From Bradyrhizobium diazoefficiens (GTDB lineage Bacteria; Pseudomonadota; Alphaproteobacteria; Rhizobiales; Xanthobacteraceae), in the NCBI RefSeq assembly GCF_016616425.1, contig NZ_CP067101.1, positions 1,178,001-1,242,000 of the forward strand: DNA of 64,000 nucleotides, in the 5' to 3' direction. Shown one piece after another: positions 26,558-55,866 of the stretch; position 1 is the stretch's first letter, and each line of letters opens with the position of its first letter. A program made the position numbers and the translations under genes. The notes beneath the pieces were generated by a model. It ran no database searches and was not told where the DNA came from. It worked only from the letters and a program-made list of their open reading frames with translations.

Positions 26558-28276
26558 TCATCCCGCCGCCATGGCCTGTGCGCCCCCAAGCAGCCGCGCA
26601 TTCAGCCGGCCGCCGGAGAACAGCATGTCGTCGAGCGCCTCGTCGATATCGGCGGGGATCACTGAGCTGCCGCCATCGCGCGCAAGGCTGGCTTGTGCCA
26701 GCCGTCGCATCAACTCCTTGATGAACGCGCAACTCGTGCCTTCGCTGCGCCGGGCTGCTTCGGCTATGACCGCATCATCGAGCGGCAATCCCTTGCCGTA
26801 GAGGCGGACCAGTTTGCCGCGGCCGGTCTCATCTGGAAGCGGCACTTCGATCGCCTGATCGATGCGGCCCGGGCGGCCCGCAAGGGCGCCCTCAAGGTCT
26901 TCAGGCCGGTTTGTGGTCAGGACGAACAGGATGTCGGCATCTTCCTTCAATCCATCCATCTCGTTGAGCAATTTGTTCAGCATGGATTCCTCGCAAGGAC
27001 CCATGTCATCGCGGTCGCGGGCGATGAGATCGACATCCTCGATCACCACCATCGATGGCTGCAGCAGCCGTGCCAAGCTCATATAGGCGCCGAGAAGGCC
27101 AATTTGCTCGGCGGTGATGATCAGCGTCGTATGTCCAGGAAGATGCGTCGCGAGATAGCGAATCGTATGGGTCTTGCCGGTGCCGGGCGGACCGTACAAC
27201 AAGATGCCCTTGCGGGTCGACTGGCCCAGCCGGCGTAGCTGTTCGCGGGTGCCGACGAAAGTCAGCACGTTGCGATCGAGCAGTCGCAGGGTTTGCTCCG
27301 GCAGGATCACCTCGTCGCGCGCGACCGGCGGTAATCGATGCACGGTGATGCCGCGCGAGCGCCCGCGATAATCGGAATCGGCATCGAGCGACAGGATCTT
27401 GCCGCGATAGGTTCGCGCGGCTTGCACCGCCTCTTCCAGTGCGCCGAAGCATTGCTGGACGAGGGCCGCGCCTGCAGAGCCTGATAACACCAGGATCTCG
27501 ATGCGAATCCCCGGCTCGCGGCTGTACTCGCGATGTGCGCAGAGTAAGACCGCATAGCGATGACCATCCTGCTCGCATAGCCACAGTCCGTTATCCAGAC
27601 ACTTGACCGGGCTCTTTTCGCCGACGTCGACGTCGGAATATTGCAGCGGGGCAATCGCGAGCGCATAGCGGCCCTCTTTGAGAAGCCGCGAAATCGACAG
27701 CGTTTCATAGCGCTGCTCCTCGTTCAGCCCGAACAGCTCGATGGCCTCGCCGAACAGCCTGTCGATTGCTGCCTGGACATCGACCCGCATGTGGCCGGGA
27801 AACTGGCGGATCGTGGTGACGAGCTTGCTGTGCGGAACGCCATCGAAATGCCAGTTGAGAACGTCGCAAGCAAAGTCGAAATCTTCTTCTTGTTCGCTCG
27901 AAGACCCGTTCGCTGCACGCATGCATTCGCTGCAGAGCCAGACCGTGCGGTCGTCGATCCGAACGTCTGTTTGTCCCTCCGGCTTGCCGCAGAGTTCGCA
28001 AGGAGATCTGATCGCCTCAAGGGTGAGCTGCAGCCGGTGGCCGGCCAGGCCGATGGATTGTTGTGCGGATTTGAAAAGGGCTTCGGCGACGGATTGCGGG
28101 TAAGGCCCGCAAACCGCCTTGTCCTTCTGCTCGATCTGAGTGATCAGCGCGGTCGCCTCGCGCTCCGATTTGCCGAAAACCTGACGGAGCAGATCCATCA
28201 CGAACTGGTCCGGCGTATCGTCGTCATTATGAATTGCGATTTGGGTCGGCTGGTTGTCGCCACGCATACTATTCAT
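26558..28276 (-). CDS. ClpS-like / C4 zinc finger / AAA+ ATPase fusion protein
   Basis: The protein of 572 residues starts at ATG 28276 (GGAGGGTC upstream). Residues 11-88 align with ClpS (IHNDDDTPDQFVMDLLRQVF, AVCGPYPQSVAEALF, HRLQLTLE), the adaptor that hands N-degron substrates to ClpAP. Residues 93-118 form a ClpX-like zinc finger (CELC and CSEC). After a middle region comes a Cdc48/FtsH-type AAA+ module with Walker A GPPGTGKT (362-369), Walker B VVIEDVD (410-416), sensor TTN (454-456) and an RPGRID arginine region (468-473). Two ClpS pocket residues differ: Met40 is Asp23 and His66 is Glu49. A self-contained unfoldase carrying its own adaptor is inferred. No protease is adjacent. Confidence 0.85.
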   Translation of the reverse strand: MNSMRGDNQPTQIAIHNDDDTPDQFVMDLLRQVFGKSEREATALITQIEQKDKAVCGPYPQSVAEALFKSAQQSIGLAGHRLQLTLEAIRSPCELCGKPEGQTDVRIDDRTVWLCSECMRAANGSSSEQEEDFDFACDVLNWHFDGVPHSKLVTTIRQFPGHMRVDVQAAIDRLFGEAIELFGLNEEQRYETLSISRLLKEGRYALAIAPLQYSDVDVGEKSPVKCLDNGLWLCEQDGHRYAVLLCAHREYSREPGIRIEILVLSGSAGAALVQQCFGALEEAVQAARTYRGKILSLDADSDYRGRSRGITVHRLPPVARDEVILPEQTLRLLDRNVLTFVGTREQLRRLGQSTRKGILLYGPPGTGKTHTIRYLATHLPGHTTLIITAEQIGLLGAYMSLARLLQPSMVVIEDVDLIARDRDDMGPCEESMLNKLLNEMDGLKEDADILFVLTTNRPEDLEGALAGRPGRIDQAIEVPLPDETGRGKLVRLYGKGLPLDDAVIAEAARRSEGTSCAFIKELMRRLAQASLARDGGSSVIPADIDEALDDMLFSGGRLNARLLGGAQAMAAG

Positions 28277-28400
28277 CTCGAAAGACCCTCCGAGGCAATC
28301 TATGATTGAATAGAACGAATAGGGAACATAAAATTCAGGGGCCGTCAAGCGCGACGGCCGCCCAGATTGGTGATCGACAATCCGGTCGCCCGCGACTATA

Positions 28401-53180: not shown

Positions 53181-53431
53181 GGCAACGGTCGAATCGAGAA
53201 AAGGGCGGACGGTCGTTCGGATCGGCCCATTAAGCATCGATCGACGTGCCGAAACCAAAAAGATGGCTATACCGTCAAAAACTAGCGTACTACCTAAGCT
53301 TGCAGAAGGGGCGGAGATTCTACTTGCTCTTATGGGGCGGACGGTTTTGTAAACTCCTAGAGCAAACTATTCGATAGTTATGAGCCTGACGGAGCGAGTC
53401 TGTCAAAAATCTGGAATCTTGACCGATTAAG

Positions 53432-53461
53432 AAAGCCGAGACTTAAGTGTCTCGGCCTTTT
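53432..53461 (+). terminator. orphan intrinsic terminator
   Basis: GCCGAGAC and GTCTCGGC form perfect 8-bp arms around TTAAGT, with AAA before and CTTTTG after. It lies before the next gene's start, with no coding gene just upstream, so it probably ends a short RNA from 53250-53430 or is a relic of the island boundary. Confidence 0.8.
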
Positions 53462-53488
53462 GTTGAGGATTTGAAAGTGGCCGGGGAC

Positions 53489-54331
53489 ATGGAAAAGCTT
53501 CGAGAGATTTTCGCGTTCGTATGTTTCGCGATGGGGATTTGTTCGCTCATCCTGGCCGTGTATCAGCTATGGAATGAGAAGTTCATCTCGGCTGCAGGGC
53601 TAGGCGTCGCATTTGCGGTGTGCGGGATCGTTGTCTACCTCTCGCAGATCAAGACCTTCAAGGTCTGGCAAATCGAGGTCGAGCTTCGAGAGACGTTGGA
53701 TAGAGCCGAAGAGATTATCGGCAGGGTGCGGAAGCTGGCCGCAATTAGTGCTCGGGCGAGCTATTTGACCATCGCATGGGGTAACCGCCTCGGGACCCCT
53801 GCAGCTACTGAGAAGCAAGCAGTTCTCGACGACATTGACGCTCAGCTTGTCGAGCTGAAGGTGACGCCAGATGAGCGGGCGATCATCATCCGCCCGTGGC
53901 TAAAGATGATTAAGGCCGACTTCTTCTTCCTGTTCACGCGAGTGATTCGGGGGATCGCGCCGCTCAAAAATAAAGAGCTGGTTGCCGCTATACACGCCAC
54001 AACCACCCAAGAGGCGACTGATGCGTCACTTGCGCATTCGAACCTCATAACTCCATGGTCGAAGAAGACCAACGCCGATTTCAAGGCGATGGACCGTTTA
54101 GAGAACAAGAGCCTCTCGGCTGTGATCGAAGAGTGGATGCCCGAGAGAGGGGGATGGTTGTCCGATAAGGAACTGGCAGCGGTCGACGTGTTCAAAAAGG
54201 AGATATTGAAGCAGGCTAGCGAGAGCGAGAAGAAGGGCGGATATACTCGAGAAGCTGCCGAGTATTTCGACGCGCTGCAAAAACGTGAAGCTGAGAAAGC
54301 GCAAGAGATTTGGGACGCCTCAAAGAAGTGA
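53489..54331 (+). CDS. two-TM membrane protein with cytoplasmic coiled coil, unknown
   Basis: From ATG 53489 the protein of about 280 residues has two membrane helices near residues 8-30 (FVCFAMGICSLILAVYQLW) and 35-55 (AAGLGVAFAVCGIVVYL), then a cytoplasmic Glu/Lys/Arg-rich helical part (ELRETLDRAEEIIGRVRKLA to KREAEKAQEIWDASKK). A GTG at 53447 in this frame lies in the terminator and is rejected. Lower GC and AT-rich codons differ from flanking genes. I know no family. It is followed at once by the HEPN-like gene. Confidence 0.6.
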   Translation: MEKLREIFAFVCFAMGICSLILAVYQLWNEKFISAAGLGVAFAVCGIVVYLSQIKTFKVWQIEVELRETLDRAEEIIGRVRKLAAISARASYLTIAWGNRLGTPAATEKQAVLDDIDAQLVELKVTPDERAIIIRPWLKMIKADFFFLFTRVIRGIAPLKNKELVAAIHATTTQEATDASLAHSNLITPWSKKTNADFKAMDRLENKSLSAVIEEWMPERGGWLSDKELAAVDVFKKEILKQASESEKKGGYTREAAEYFDALQKREAEKAQEIWDASKK

Positions 54332-54338
54332 AGCTTGG

Positions 54339-54815
54339 ATGGGTGACTTCCTCGACATTCTCAACGAAGCAAGCACGTTCGAAACTCTCACGAAACTCGA
54401 GCATTTCCTGCATCGCGAGCCGCCGCCCTCGATGTCGGACCAAACACTGTCGTTCTTTGCTTATTCGTACGAGGTGACGTTCCGGGAGATGGCGGTCGCG
54501 CTCAAAGCACGGTGGCGGCATAACGGCTCCCTGCAAGCCCCGCTGTTTTACGTCGCCCGCCATTCAATCGAGCTTCACCTGAAATGGGCCATCGAGGAGT
54601 TCGTGAGCTACACCGGAGATCCTGGCAAGGACTGCGGACACAACCTGCTTGACCTCTCGAATGAATTGAAACGGCAGCAATTCGACCTGGCAGCGTTGCG
54701 TCGAGTTCGAAGGGCTGGTGAAGGCGCACGACCACATCACAAGCTACTGCGGCGCCTCGATGGACGTTCTAGCCGAATCTCGCAGCTGCTACCGAGGTCC
54801 ACATGGCGTGGGTGA
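54339..54815 (+). CDS. HEPN-like protein, possibly frameshifted at the 3' end
   Basis: From ATG 54339, residues 1-115 are ordered: an N-terminal helical part, then FYVARHSIELHLKWAIEEF and GHNLLDLSNELKRQQFDL, a HEPN-like pattern (RHxIELxLK and a following HNL). The last 40 residues in this frame are Arg-rich and unlike a protein. In another frame from about 54700, EFEGLVKAHDHITSYCGASM and DVLAESRSCYRGPHGVG give a normal composition and end near 54829, so a frameshift near 54695 is likely. HEPN proteins are often RNases or toxin/defence parts; the role here is unknown. Confidence 0.5.
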   Translation: MGDFLDILNEASTFETLTKLEHFLHREPPPSMSDQTLSFFAYSYEVTFREMAVALKARWRHNGSLQAPLFYVARHSIELHLKWAIEEFVSYTGDPGKDCGHNLLDLSNELKRQQFDLAALRRVRRAGEGARPHHKLLRRLDGRSSRISQLLPRSTWRG

Positions 54816-55330
54816 AGAGCAACCCAAATGAAATCCTGAAAGATTTCCCCAACATGCAGGATTATCTCCCTTACCTCGAAGAGCTGGGCAAAGAGAGCCC
54901 GCGGGGTAAGGTCCTGATCTCGACGGGATTCATGGAGCAAGTGCTCAAGGAGATTCTGTGCGCCTTTCTGGTTGAGGGGAAAGTTGCCGAAGAACTGTTC
55001 GAAGGCGGCAATGCGCCACTCGGAACGTTTTCCGCTCGCGCAAAGCTCGCCTTCACGCTAGGCCTAGTTTCCGAGAAGGAATTTCAGGATCTGGAGCTGA
55101 TCCGAAAGATTCGCAACGAGTTCGCCCATAACGTTAAAGCGTCGTTCGACGATCCGGCCATCGTCGCGCGGCGCAGGAGTCTTCAGCACAAGGTGCCTGA
55201 CCATCCAGACAGGCCCATGCGACCGGAGGAACAGTTCACAACGGCTTCAACAGGACTGTTGCTGAACATCATAAACCGACCAGCCCATGTGAGTAAGAAG
55301 CGTCGCTCCTACGGCAACTGGAATCGTTGA
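54803..55330 (+). CDS. MltR-like/HEPN-related protein
   Basis: This 175-residue protein resembles the MltR (mannitol repressor) domain: GKVLISTGFMEQVLKEILCA, APLGTFSARAKLAFTLGLVS and LELIRKIRNEFAHNVKASFD. The RNEFAHN motif is like RX4-6H of HEPN proteins. A mannitol operon is absent, so a regulatory or RNA-linked role independent of mannitol is more likely. It overlaps the end of the HEPN-like gene. Confidence 0.65.
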   Translation: MAWVKSNPNEILKDFPNMQDYLPYLEELGKESPRGKVLISTGFMEQVLKEILCAFLVEGKVAEELFEGGNAPLGTFSARAKLAFTLGLVSEKEFQDLELIRKIRNEFAHNVKASFDDPAIVARRRSLQHKVPDHPDRPMRPEEQFTTASTGLLLNIINRPAHVSKKRRSYGNWNR

Positions 55331-55385
55331 CTTGGCAGCTGACTCATCGCTGTGTGCATATCAGTCCTTACTCAATGGTTGGGCA

Positions 55386-55866
55386 ATGTCAGAAGAAGAG
55401 AAAATACGGGACGCCGAGCACCTGAAGGGGCTGACGGATATCGTCAAGAACAAGACTCTATTCTTGATCCCTTTCTTCAGTGCGTGTCTCGCGTTCCTGC
55501 TTGCAAAGACCGACTACATCAAAGAGGCAAATCTCGCCATTTGGGCGCTCCTGGCAGCCGTGATACATATCCGTTGTGTCGAGCTTGCTTTGGGCTGTCG
55601 AGAGCTGCCGGATGATCTTCACCTTCAACAAGATGGGCATTGATCCTTGGAAGAATAGAGAGAAAGATATAGCGGTATTCAAAGATGTGATGTTGTTAAT
55701 TCCGAAGATGATTGCCGCCGAAGAGTGGTGGTTCAAGAAGGTGATGCTTCTCATGTACCTGGGCGCGTTCTGCGTGCTCGAAGACGTATTCCTGGGCTAC
55801 TACAATCAGGCGCTGGCCCATTGGCTGGCGGTCAAAACGCTGGTTTTGTTCGGTTCAGGGCAATGA
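55386..55866 (+). pseudogene. membrane protein split by a frameshift
   Basis: A frame from ATG 55386 (MSEEEKIRDAEHLKGLTDIV) gives two membrane helices (TLFLIPFFSACLAFLLA, NLAIWALLAAVIHI) then degenerate-looking sequence to 55643. Another frame from about 55570 (SSLLWAVESCRMIFTFNKMG, then MLLMYLGAFCVLEDVFLGYY) continues naturally to 55866. The natural join lies near 55575, so one four-TM protein of about 155 residues was probably broken by a single-base shift. Family unknown. Confidence 0.5.

Follow-up and report, generated by a model that had tools for sequence, protein, structure and literature searches.

A conserved ClpS-finger-AAA fusion protein of Bradyrhizobium, tentatively read as a soluble chaperone of the Bcs1/YjoB type

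The present analysis concerns a gene located on the minus strand (26558..28276; 572 codons and a stop) of a 64,000-nucleotide stretch of the Bradyrhizobium diazoefficiens genome (contig NZ_CP067101.1, positions 1,178,001 to 1,242,000, hereafter the window), a genome consisting of a single 7.14-Mb contig. Its product is a genuine fusion of a ClpS module, a four-cysteine finger and an AAA module, with a middle domain, predicted to be Bcs1-like, before the latter. ClpS is otherwise known as a free adaptor sending proteins to ClpAP. In the genomes sampled, the ClpS-finger-AAA family is conserved and confined almost wholly to Bradyrhizobium. We tentatively favour its interpretation as a soluble AAA chaperone of the Bcs1/YjoB type, in which a re-tuned receptor derived from ClpS, recognising a client or its N-terminus, would be built in. 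A preliminary description of the window had proposed a self-contained machine of N-degron recognition and unfolding, an interpretation that is partly supported here.

The frame encodes 572 amino acids without interruption and is preceded by a likely ribosome-binding site, GGAGGG (28286..28291), read from the sequence nine bases ahead of the ATG at 28276; this site and all the modules lie on the minus strand. The coordinates, module borders and Walker A position given by the preliminary description were all correct, and two of the three modules that it had placed in one frame exceed their Pfam cut-offs. The ClpS module (residues 11-88; 28013..28246) matches PF02617 over residues 11-84 with 52.2 bits (cut-off 23) and the AAA module (residues 319-555; 26612..27322) matches the AAA family over residues 358-480 with 74.4 bits (cut-off 21.2). 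The identity of the ClpS module, positive in this profile search, is further established by solved ClpS chains, nine distinct sequences of which align to residues 12-87 or 13-87 (E 1.4e-9 to 2.1e-7), gap-free in the four alignments viewed; E. coli ClpS (YljA) is among these chains and another one is presumably that of Caulobacter. The ClpX-like zinc finger initially proposed keeps its four cysteines (residues 93-118; 27923..28000) and stays below its profile threshold, residues 93-123 reaching 17.8 bits with zf-C4_ClpX (PF06689) for a cut-off of 27. Because of this low score, its identification as a likely zinc finger rests on C93, C96, C115 and C118, arranged as CxxC plus CxxC.

The three modules initially listed were right, and the inventory had left undescribed the middle domain (residues 132-318; 27323..27883), which is beta-rich in the structure model and lies within the structural match to YjoB and Bcs1. 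Residues 126-335, which include this domain, gave no Pfam family above cut-off with the four sequences tried, and an 11-sequence profile of this region retrieved nothing from the PDB by sequence. No membrane helix was found in the protein, where the highest 19-residue hydropathy mean is 1.42. In the AAA module, the classical motifs are complete, with a Walker A GPPGTGKT (residues 362-369; 27170..27193) and a Walker B MVVIED (residues 409-414; 27035..27052) in which Glu-Asp replaces the usual Asp-Glu; K368, E413 and D414, the sensor asparagine N456 and the arginine fingers R468 and R471 are retained in 73 of 73 aligned sequences.

This alignment contains the window protein and 72 of 80 related loci, those left out being matches split over two frames (L057, L063, L075, L094, L097, L115), a copy with an in-frame stop (L082) and a copy cut by a contig end (L129). 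Over sequence pairs with a core dS of 0.1-1, the median dN/dS was lowest in AAA (0.14) and rose through the middle domain (0.23), ClpS (0.28) and the finger (0.40) to the linker (0.70). The low values of the modules show that the frame is not due to chance, and purifying selection acts on the ClpS module, to a lesser degree than on the motor. Each of the four finger cysteines is retained in 63-64 of the 73 rows and four rows are devoid of the whole region. Four copies without ClpS and finger (L084-L087) are nested in a ClpS-bearing clade of the tree, a clustering that fits a single loss. Copies lacking both modules are encountered at L020/L026 (genome G021), L027 (G133, apparently identical to L086), L084, L085 and L087; in G021 and G133 they are still adjoined by some of the gene families flanking the window gene, representing a natural loss of domains in which the motor was spared.

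By sequence search, the AAA part ranks Cdc48 and AFG2 first, and the preliminary description had considered it a Cdc48-type unfoldase. The alignment with Cdc48 D2 skips eight residues in one gap at residues 388-398 (27083..27115), and that with Cdc48 D1 does so in three gaps; we take the skipped Cdc48 stretch to be pore loop 1. In the structure model, helix 389-404 comes straight after strand 383-387, and the distance from Walker A to Walker B is identical in the 73 sequences. The aromatic-hydrophobic pore loop 1 of threading unfoldases (Cdc48/FtsH/ClpX type) was not found at its expected position. Although Cdc48/p97 and AFG2 share the conserved RPGR arginines with the fusion protein, they differ from it by two AAA modules matched per chain and by the presence of pore loop 1, and they carry a different N-domain.

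Searched with Foldseek, the structure model has YjoB and Bcs1 as best matches, covering both the middle domain and the AAA module. YjoB of Bacillus subtilis (PDB 7w42 and 7w46), which we take to be a chaperone, comes first with 343-350 residues aligned at about 19-21% identity and a single AAA module as in the fusion protein; the match begins at model residue 134-135, leaving ClpS and the finger without counterpart. Bcs1/BCS1L, the mitochondrial translocase of the folded Rieske protein, resembles the model in having AAA placed after a beta-sheet middle domain, and three of its PDB entries align over 326, 330 and 339 residues. Excerpts from the literature describe Bcs1 as a heptamer with an N-terminal membrane helix (PMC12219900, PMC11143374) that does not use a threading mechanism (PMC11143374); the fusion protein carries ClpS and the finger in the place of this helix. 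Because of the structural match and of the shortened pore loop 1 segment, the motor fits better with a Bcs1-like non-threading machine than with a Cdc48-type unfoldase, and the initial Cdc48 assignment is not supported. Two observations weigh against the Bcs1-like reading, the low TM-scores of the YjoB and Bcs1 matches and the position of AFG2 as top VIA row for the structure model. The Bcs1/YjoB fold class of the middle domain and AAA module is a prediction drawn from this model, whose match lists are full of AAA rings, such that the absence of other families there carries no meaning.

The ClpS module retains the fold of the free adaptor, aligning gap-free with Caulobacter and E. coli ClpS, and differs from it by the replacement of the amino-site histidine and of the ClpA-contact lysine and by the attachment of its own ATPase. 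The parts of PMC12493166 consulted report that the Caulobacter protein contacts the amino group by Asn47, Asp49 and His79, with a methionine as gatekeeper, and that Lys84 of E. coli ClpS contacts ClpA as part of the chaperone-binding site. The pocket-equivalent residues of the window protein are N17, D18, D19, T21, D23, E49 and L82. Among 69 family sequences, the histidine position is occupied by Glu in 55 (E49 in the window), Asp in 6 and His in none, and Met is found at the gatekeeper position (M40 equivalent) in none; L129, left out of the alignment, retains the pocket histidine. The first amino-group position is N in 35 and D in 29 of 68 sequences (N17 in the window, where D19 is also present), while the equivalents of E. 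coli D35 and T38 are kept in 66/68 and 67/69, respectively. On the ClpA side, the lysine equivalent to Lys84 has given way to Leu, Met or Ile in 69/69 (Leu in the window), and Glu is retained in a single sequence of 69 at the Glu79 position, which we assume to face ClpA in the E. coli protein. The rim positions are variable and the former ClpA-side positions now form a family signature, C-G-P-Y-P, with Leu at K84. Twelve pocket positions taken jointly show no significant excess of conservation over the rest (permutation p 0.19). The replacements make a role as ClpA adaptor improbable, and yet Leptospira ClpS1, with Asp at the histidine and Val at the Lys84 position, is described in the consulted parts of PMC12493166 as a functional adaptor binding ClpA at 0.44 uM. 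Reading of N-termini with another specificity is a possible function.

As a soluble chaperone of the Bcs1/YjoB type, the protein would form a ring of subunits in which the ClpS module and finger precede the middle domain and take the position of the Bcs1 membrane helix. The ClpS module would capture a client, probably by its N-terminus and with a specificity unlike that of canonical ClpS, and ATP turnover would alter the shape of the ring so that a folded or partly folded client could be moved, remodelled or released without threading, as proposed by analogy with Bcs1. No coupling to a protease is obvious. The more specific proposal of a bacterial N-recognin mounted on a Bcs1-type non-threading ring, reading protein ends to handle a folded client and not to destroy it, is one that we regard as doubtful.

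Among the alternatives, the one that survives best, while still rather unlikely, is that the ClpS module is no longer a reader of N-termini and serves as a docking or assembly element, binding a single constant partner or resting against the ring by its former ClpA face. The replacement of the H66 and M40 equivalents throughout the 69 sequences, the variable rim, the family signature on the former ClpA side, the lack of preferential conservation of the pocket and the persistence of a clade without ClpS would all agree with this loss of function, whereas the near invariance of the D35 and T38 equivalents would not be expected from it, and Leptospira ClpS1 combines an acidic residue at the histidine position with adaptor function and ClpA binding (PMC12493166, as excerpted).

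It is improbable that the protein is a self-contained unfoldase threading N-degron substrates into a protease, as initially suggested. The pore loop 1 segment is shortened, the middle domain and AAA module match YjoB/Bcs1, and the absence of an adjacent protease, already pointed out in the preliminary description, holds for the six neighbours annotated in the window from 23.9 to 32.9 kb. In favour of this view are the presence of ClpS and AAA on one chain, the first rank of Cdc48 and AFG2 among sequence matches of the AAA part, the AFG2 top VIA row and the weak resemblance of the finger to that of ClpX. The IetA anti-phage ATPase was also considered and rejected: PADLOC returned AAA models with IetA as the best (67.5 bits), the NCBIfam score was 61.7 bits for an equivalog cut-off of 510, and the partner of IetA is presumably a protease gene beside it, a kind of gene not present among the six window neighbours.

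In the same genome, canonical ClpS and ClpA are encoded side by side, at 4.519 and 4.517 Mb respectively, and an L/F-transferase and a further free ClpS are present as well; the fusion is distinct from this ClpS/ClpA pair, in agreement with its initial placement outside the ClpAP system. An N-degron pathway is therefore available to regulate, and the lysine is not needed for ClpA binding by Leptospira ClpS1 (PMC12493166, same excerpts), yet a fused regulator of ClpAPS, competing with free ClpS for N-degrons or ClpA, is the least credible of the alternatives, with the K84 equivalent lost in 69/69 sequences, E79 kept in 1/69 and a fusion gene not adjacent to clpA. The second free ClpS (L002, G000:C1:2714483-2714719) is devoid of the CG motif of the first and is adjoined by a GNAT acetyltransferase frame.

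The architecture was recovered in other genomes of Bradyrhizobium, as the preliminary description had proposed to verify: of 36 genomes of the genus, 17 gave strong matches (E 5.2e-92 or better), the one under study among them, with a late start in three of the 17 (residue 126 in G016 and G021, residue 50 in G025). Outside the family but within the order, 24 genomes gave ClpS-level matches only, and 8 of 198 genomes of a family sample, belonging to 2 of 47 genera, gave a match. When the middle domain was run against a phylum sample, scoring no more than seven candidates in each genome, 7 of 398 genomes matched including its own, all from one genus; a query combining middle domain and AAA matched two more of the 398 at 1e-27, by AAA only and with 37-38% identity. 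ClpS itself is present in at least 372 of these 398 genomes, and further ClpS-AAA fusions may occur elsewhere in the phylum, frame length alone proving nothing. One long frame of a same-genus genome (G022; L024 686-2395, minus strand, about 570 residues) contains no AAA and encodes a beta-lactamase-fold protein (PF00144 and DUF3471) with a C-terminal ClpS keeping the canonical histidine, thus a different ClpS fusion in the genus.

A scan of species genomes, from which the best 80 of 121 relatives were retained (some coinciding with loci of the genus genomes, e.g. L086 and G133), yielded 71 records titled Bradyrhizobium and two titled Mesorhizobium, the remaining seven being “Frankia sp. RB7” and six further metagenome-assembled genomes. 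The versions of “Frankia sp. RB7” (L065) and of a “Ramlibacter” metagenome-assembled genome (L112) are Bradyrhizobium-like and could come from mislabelled or mis-binned records. Phage records matched in 150 cases, none across more than 80% of the query, and PHROGs gave AAA matches plus one ClpS-like family. A literature search of titles and abstract starts, in which subscription journals are thinly covered, retrieved no account of a ClpS-finger-AAA protein; the parts consulted of two comparative-genomics papers (PMC1779556, PMC7159879) concern other systems, in which ClpS/L12 insertions occur or ClpS is a neighbour in the operon.

A sister family without ClpS or finger is borne by rhizobial plasmids. 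The 25 best matches in plasmid records span residues 110-135 to 540-551 with 39-50% identity and are of rhizobial origin, a nodule isolate of Paraburkholderia included. Among the best 60 of 689 records, lower ranks correspond to FtsH and other AAA proteins. The sister proteins are annotated as “ATP-binding protein” or “AAA family ATPase”. Seven of them, once aligned, are 52-59% identical to the window protein in AAA and 29-32% in the middle domain, with a Glu-Asp Walker B in 7/7 and an equally short pore segment in 6/7, three residues longer in the other one. A ClpS-finger query gave no match in the eight plasmid stretches tried.

Twelve hand-chosen plasmid stretches (eight with 6-kb and four with 8-kb flanks) were analysed for their gene content. 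Annotated nif/fix genes occur in seven (L135, L136, L138, L139, L140, L143, L145) and not in the five others (L137, L141, L142, L144, L146). In Paraburkholderia sprentiae the sister gene, annotated as two overlapping pieces, is located between nifHDK and nifENX, and in Rhizobium lentis the sister gene and nifH diverge, separated by a single hypothetical gene. Annotated proteases lie at distance from the sister gene, of the pitrilysin family in L137 and L144 and a carboxypeptidase in L146. Two Rhizobium plasmids (L138 822-3191 and L139 935-3304) harbour four genes some 3 kb ahead of the sister gene, annotated as TIR, hypothetical or DUF1273, caspase family and TIR. Upstream of the plasmid copies, TGT-N10-ACA was found in 4/8 (three being close relatives) and a -24/-12 element in 1/8, which are not used as support, and a word search of the text of a paper on the Mesorhizobium NifA-RpoN regulon (PMC3538637) gave neither AAA nor ATPase.

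A plasmid-type paralog in Bradyrhizobium was sought and rejected: 18 of 36 genomes match at E 1e-40 or better, of which 17 correspond to the ClpS-AAA gene or its ClpS-less form and the remaining one (G011) to a short AAA stretch within a 155-residue frame. A link of the Bradyrhizobium gene with nitrogen fixation was rejected as well, nifH being above cut-off in 11/17 genomes with the gene and 10/19 without it (Fisher p 0.52). Because the ClpS form shows no nifH association, the symbiosis link of the plasmid genes is not carried over to the window gene.

In the window, a divergent MarR regulator and an enoyl-CoA hydratase are encoded upstream of the fusion gene, and a D-2-hydroxyacid dehydrogenase and a rhodanese protein are convergent downstream. 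No constant partner gene was found across the 19 loci compared, neighbours at other loci being annotated for ten representatives. HlyD/MFS (EmrA/EmrB-like) genes are directly upstream in five related loci and other clades differ; a gene for a tannase-like alpha/beta hydrolase, with an additional weak Peptidase_S9 match (24.7 bits, cut-off 22.6), adjoins convergently in six loci. Further along the window, 53400-55500 looks like an acquired islet, with a low GC content (0.537 at 54-56 kb against about 0.65), an MtlR-like ORF and two further ORFs without assigned family, one of which was searched.

If the favoured interpretation is true, a ClpS module carried by a Bcs1/YjoB-type ATPase would represent a recognition of protein ends uncoupled from degradation and would offer a one-gene system to test it; an N-recognin on a non-threading ring would put an N-degron reader to use without proteolysis. 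The analysis also corrects database names calling this ATPase “ClpS” or “FtsH”, and delineates a rhizobial AAA family, absent as such from the literature searched, some members of which are located beside nitrogenase genes.
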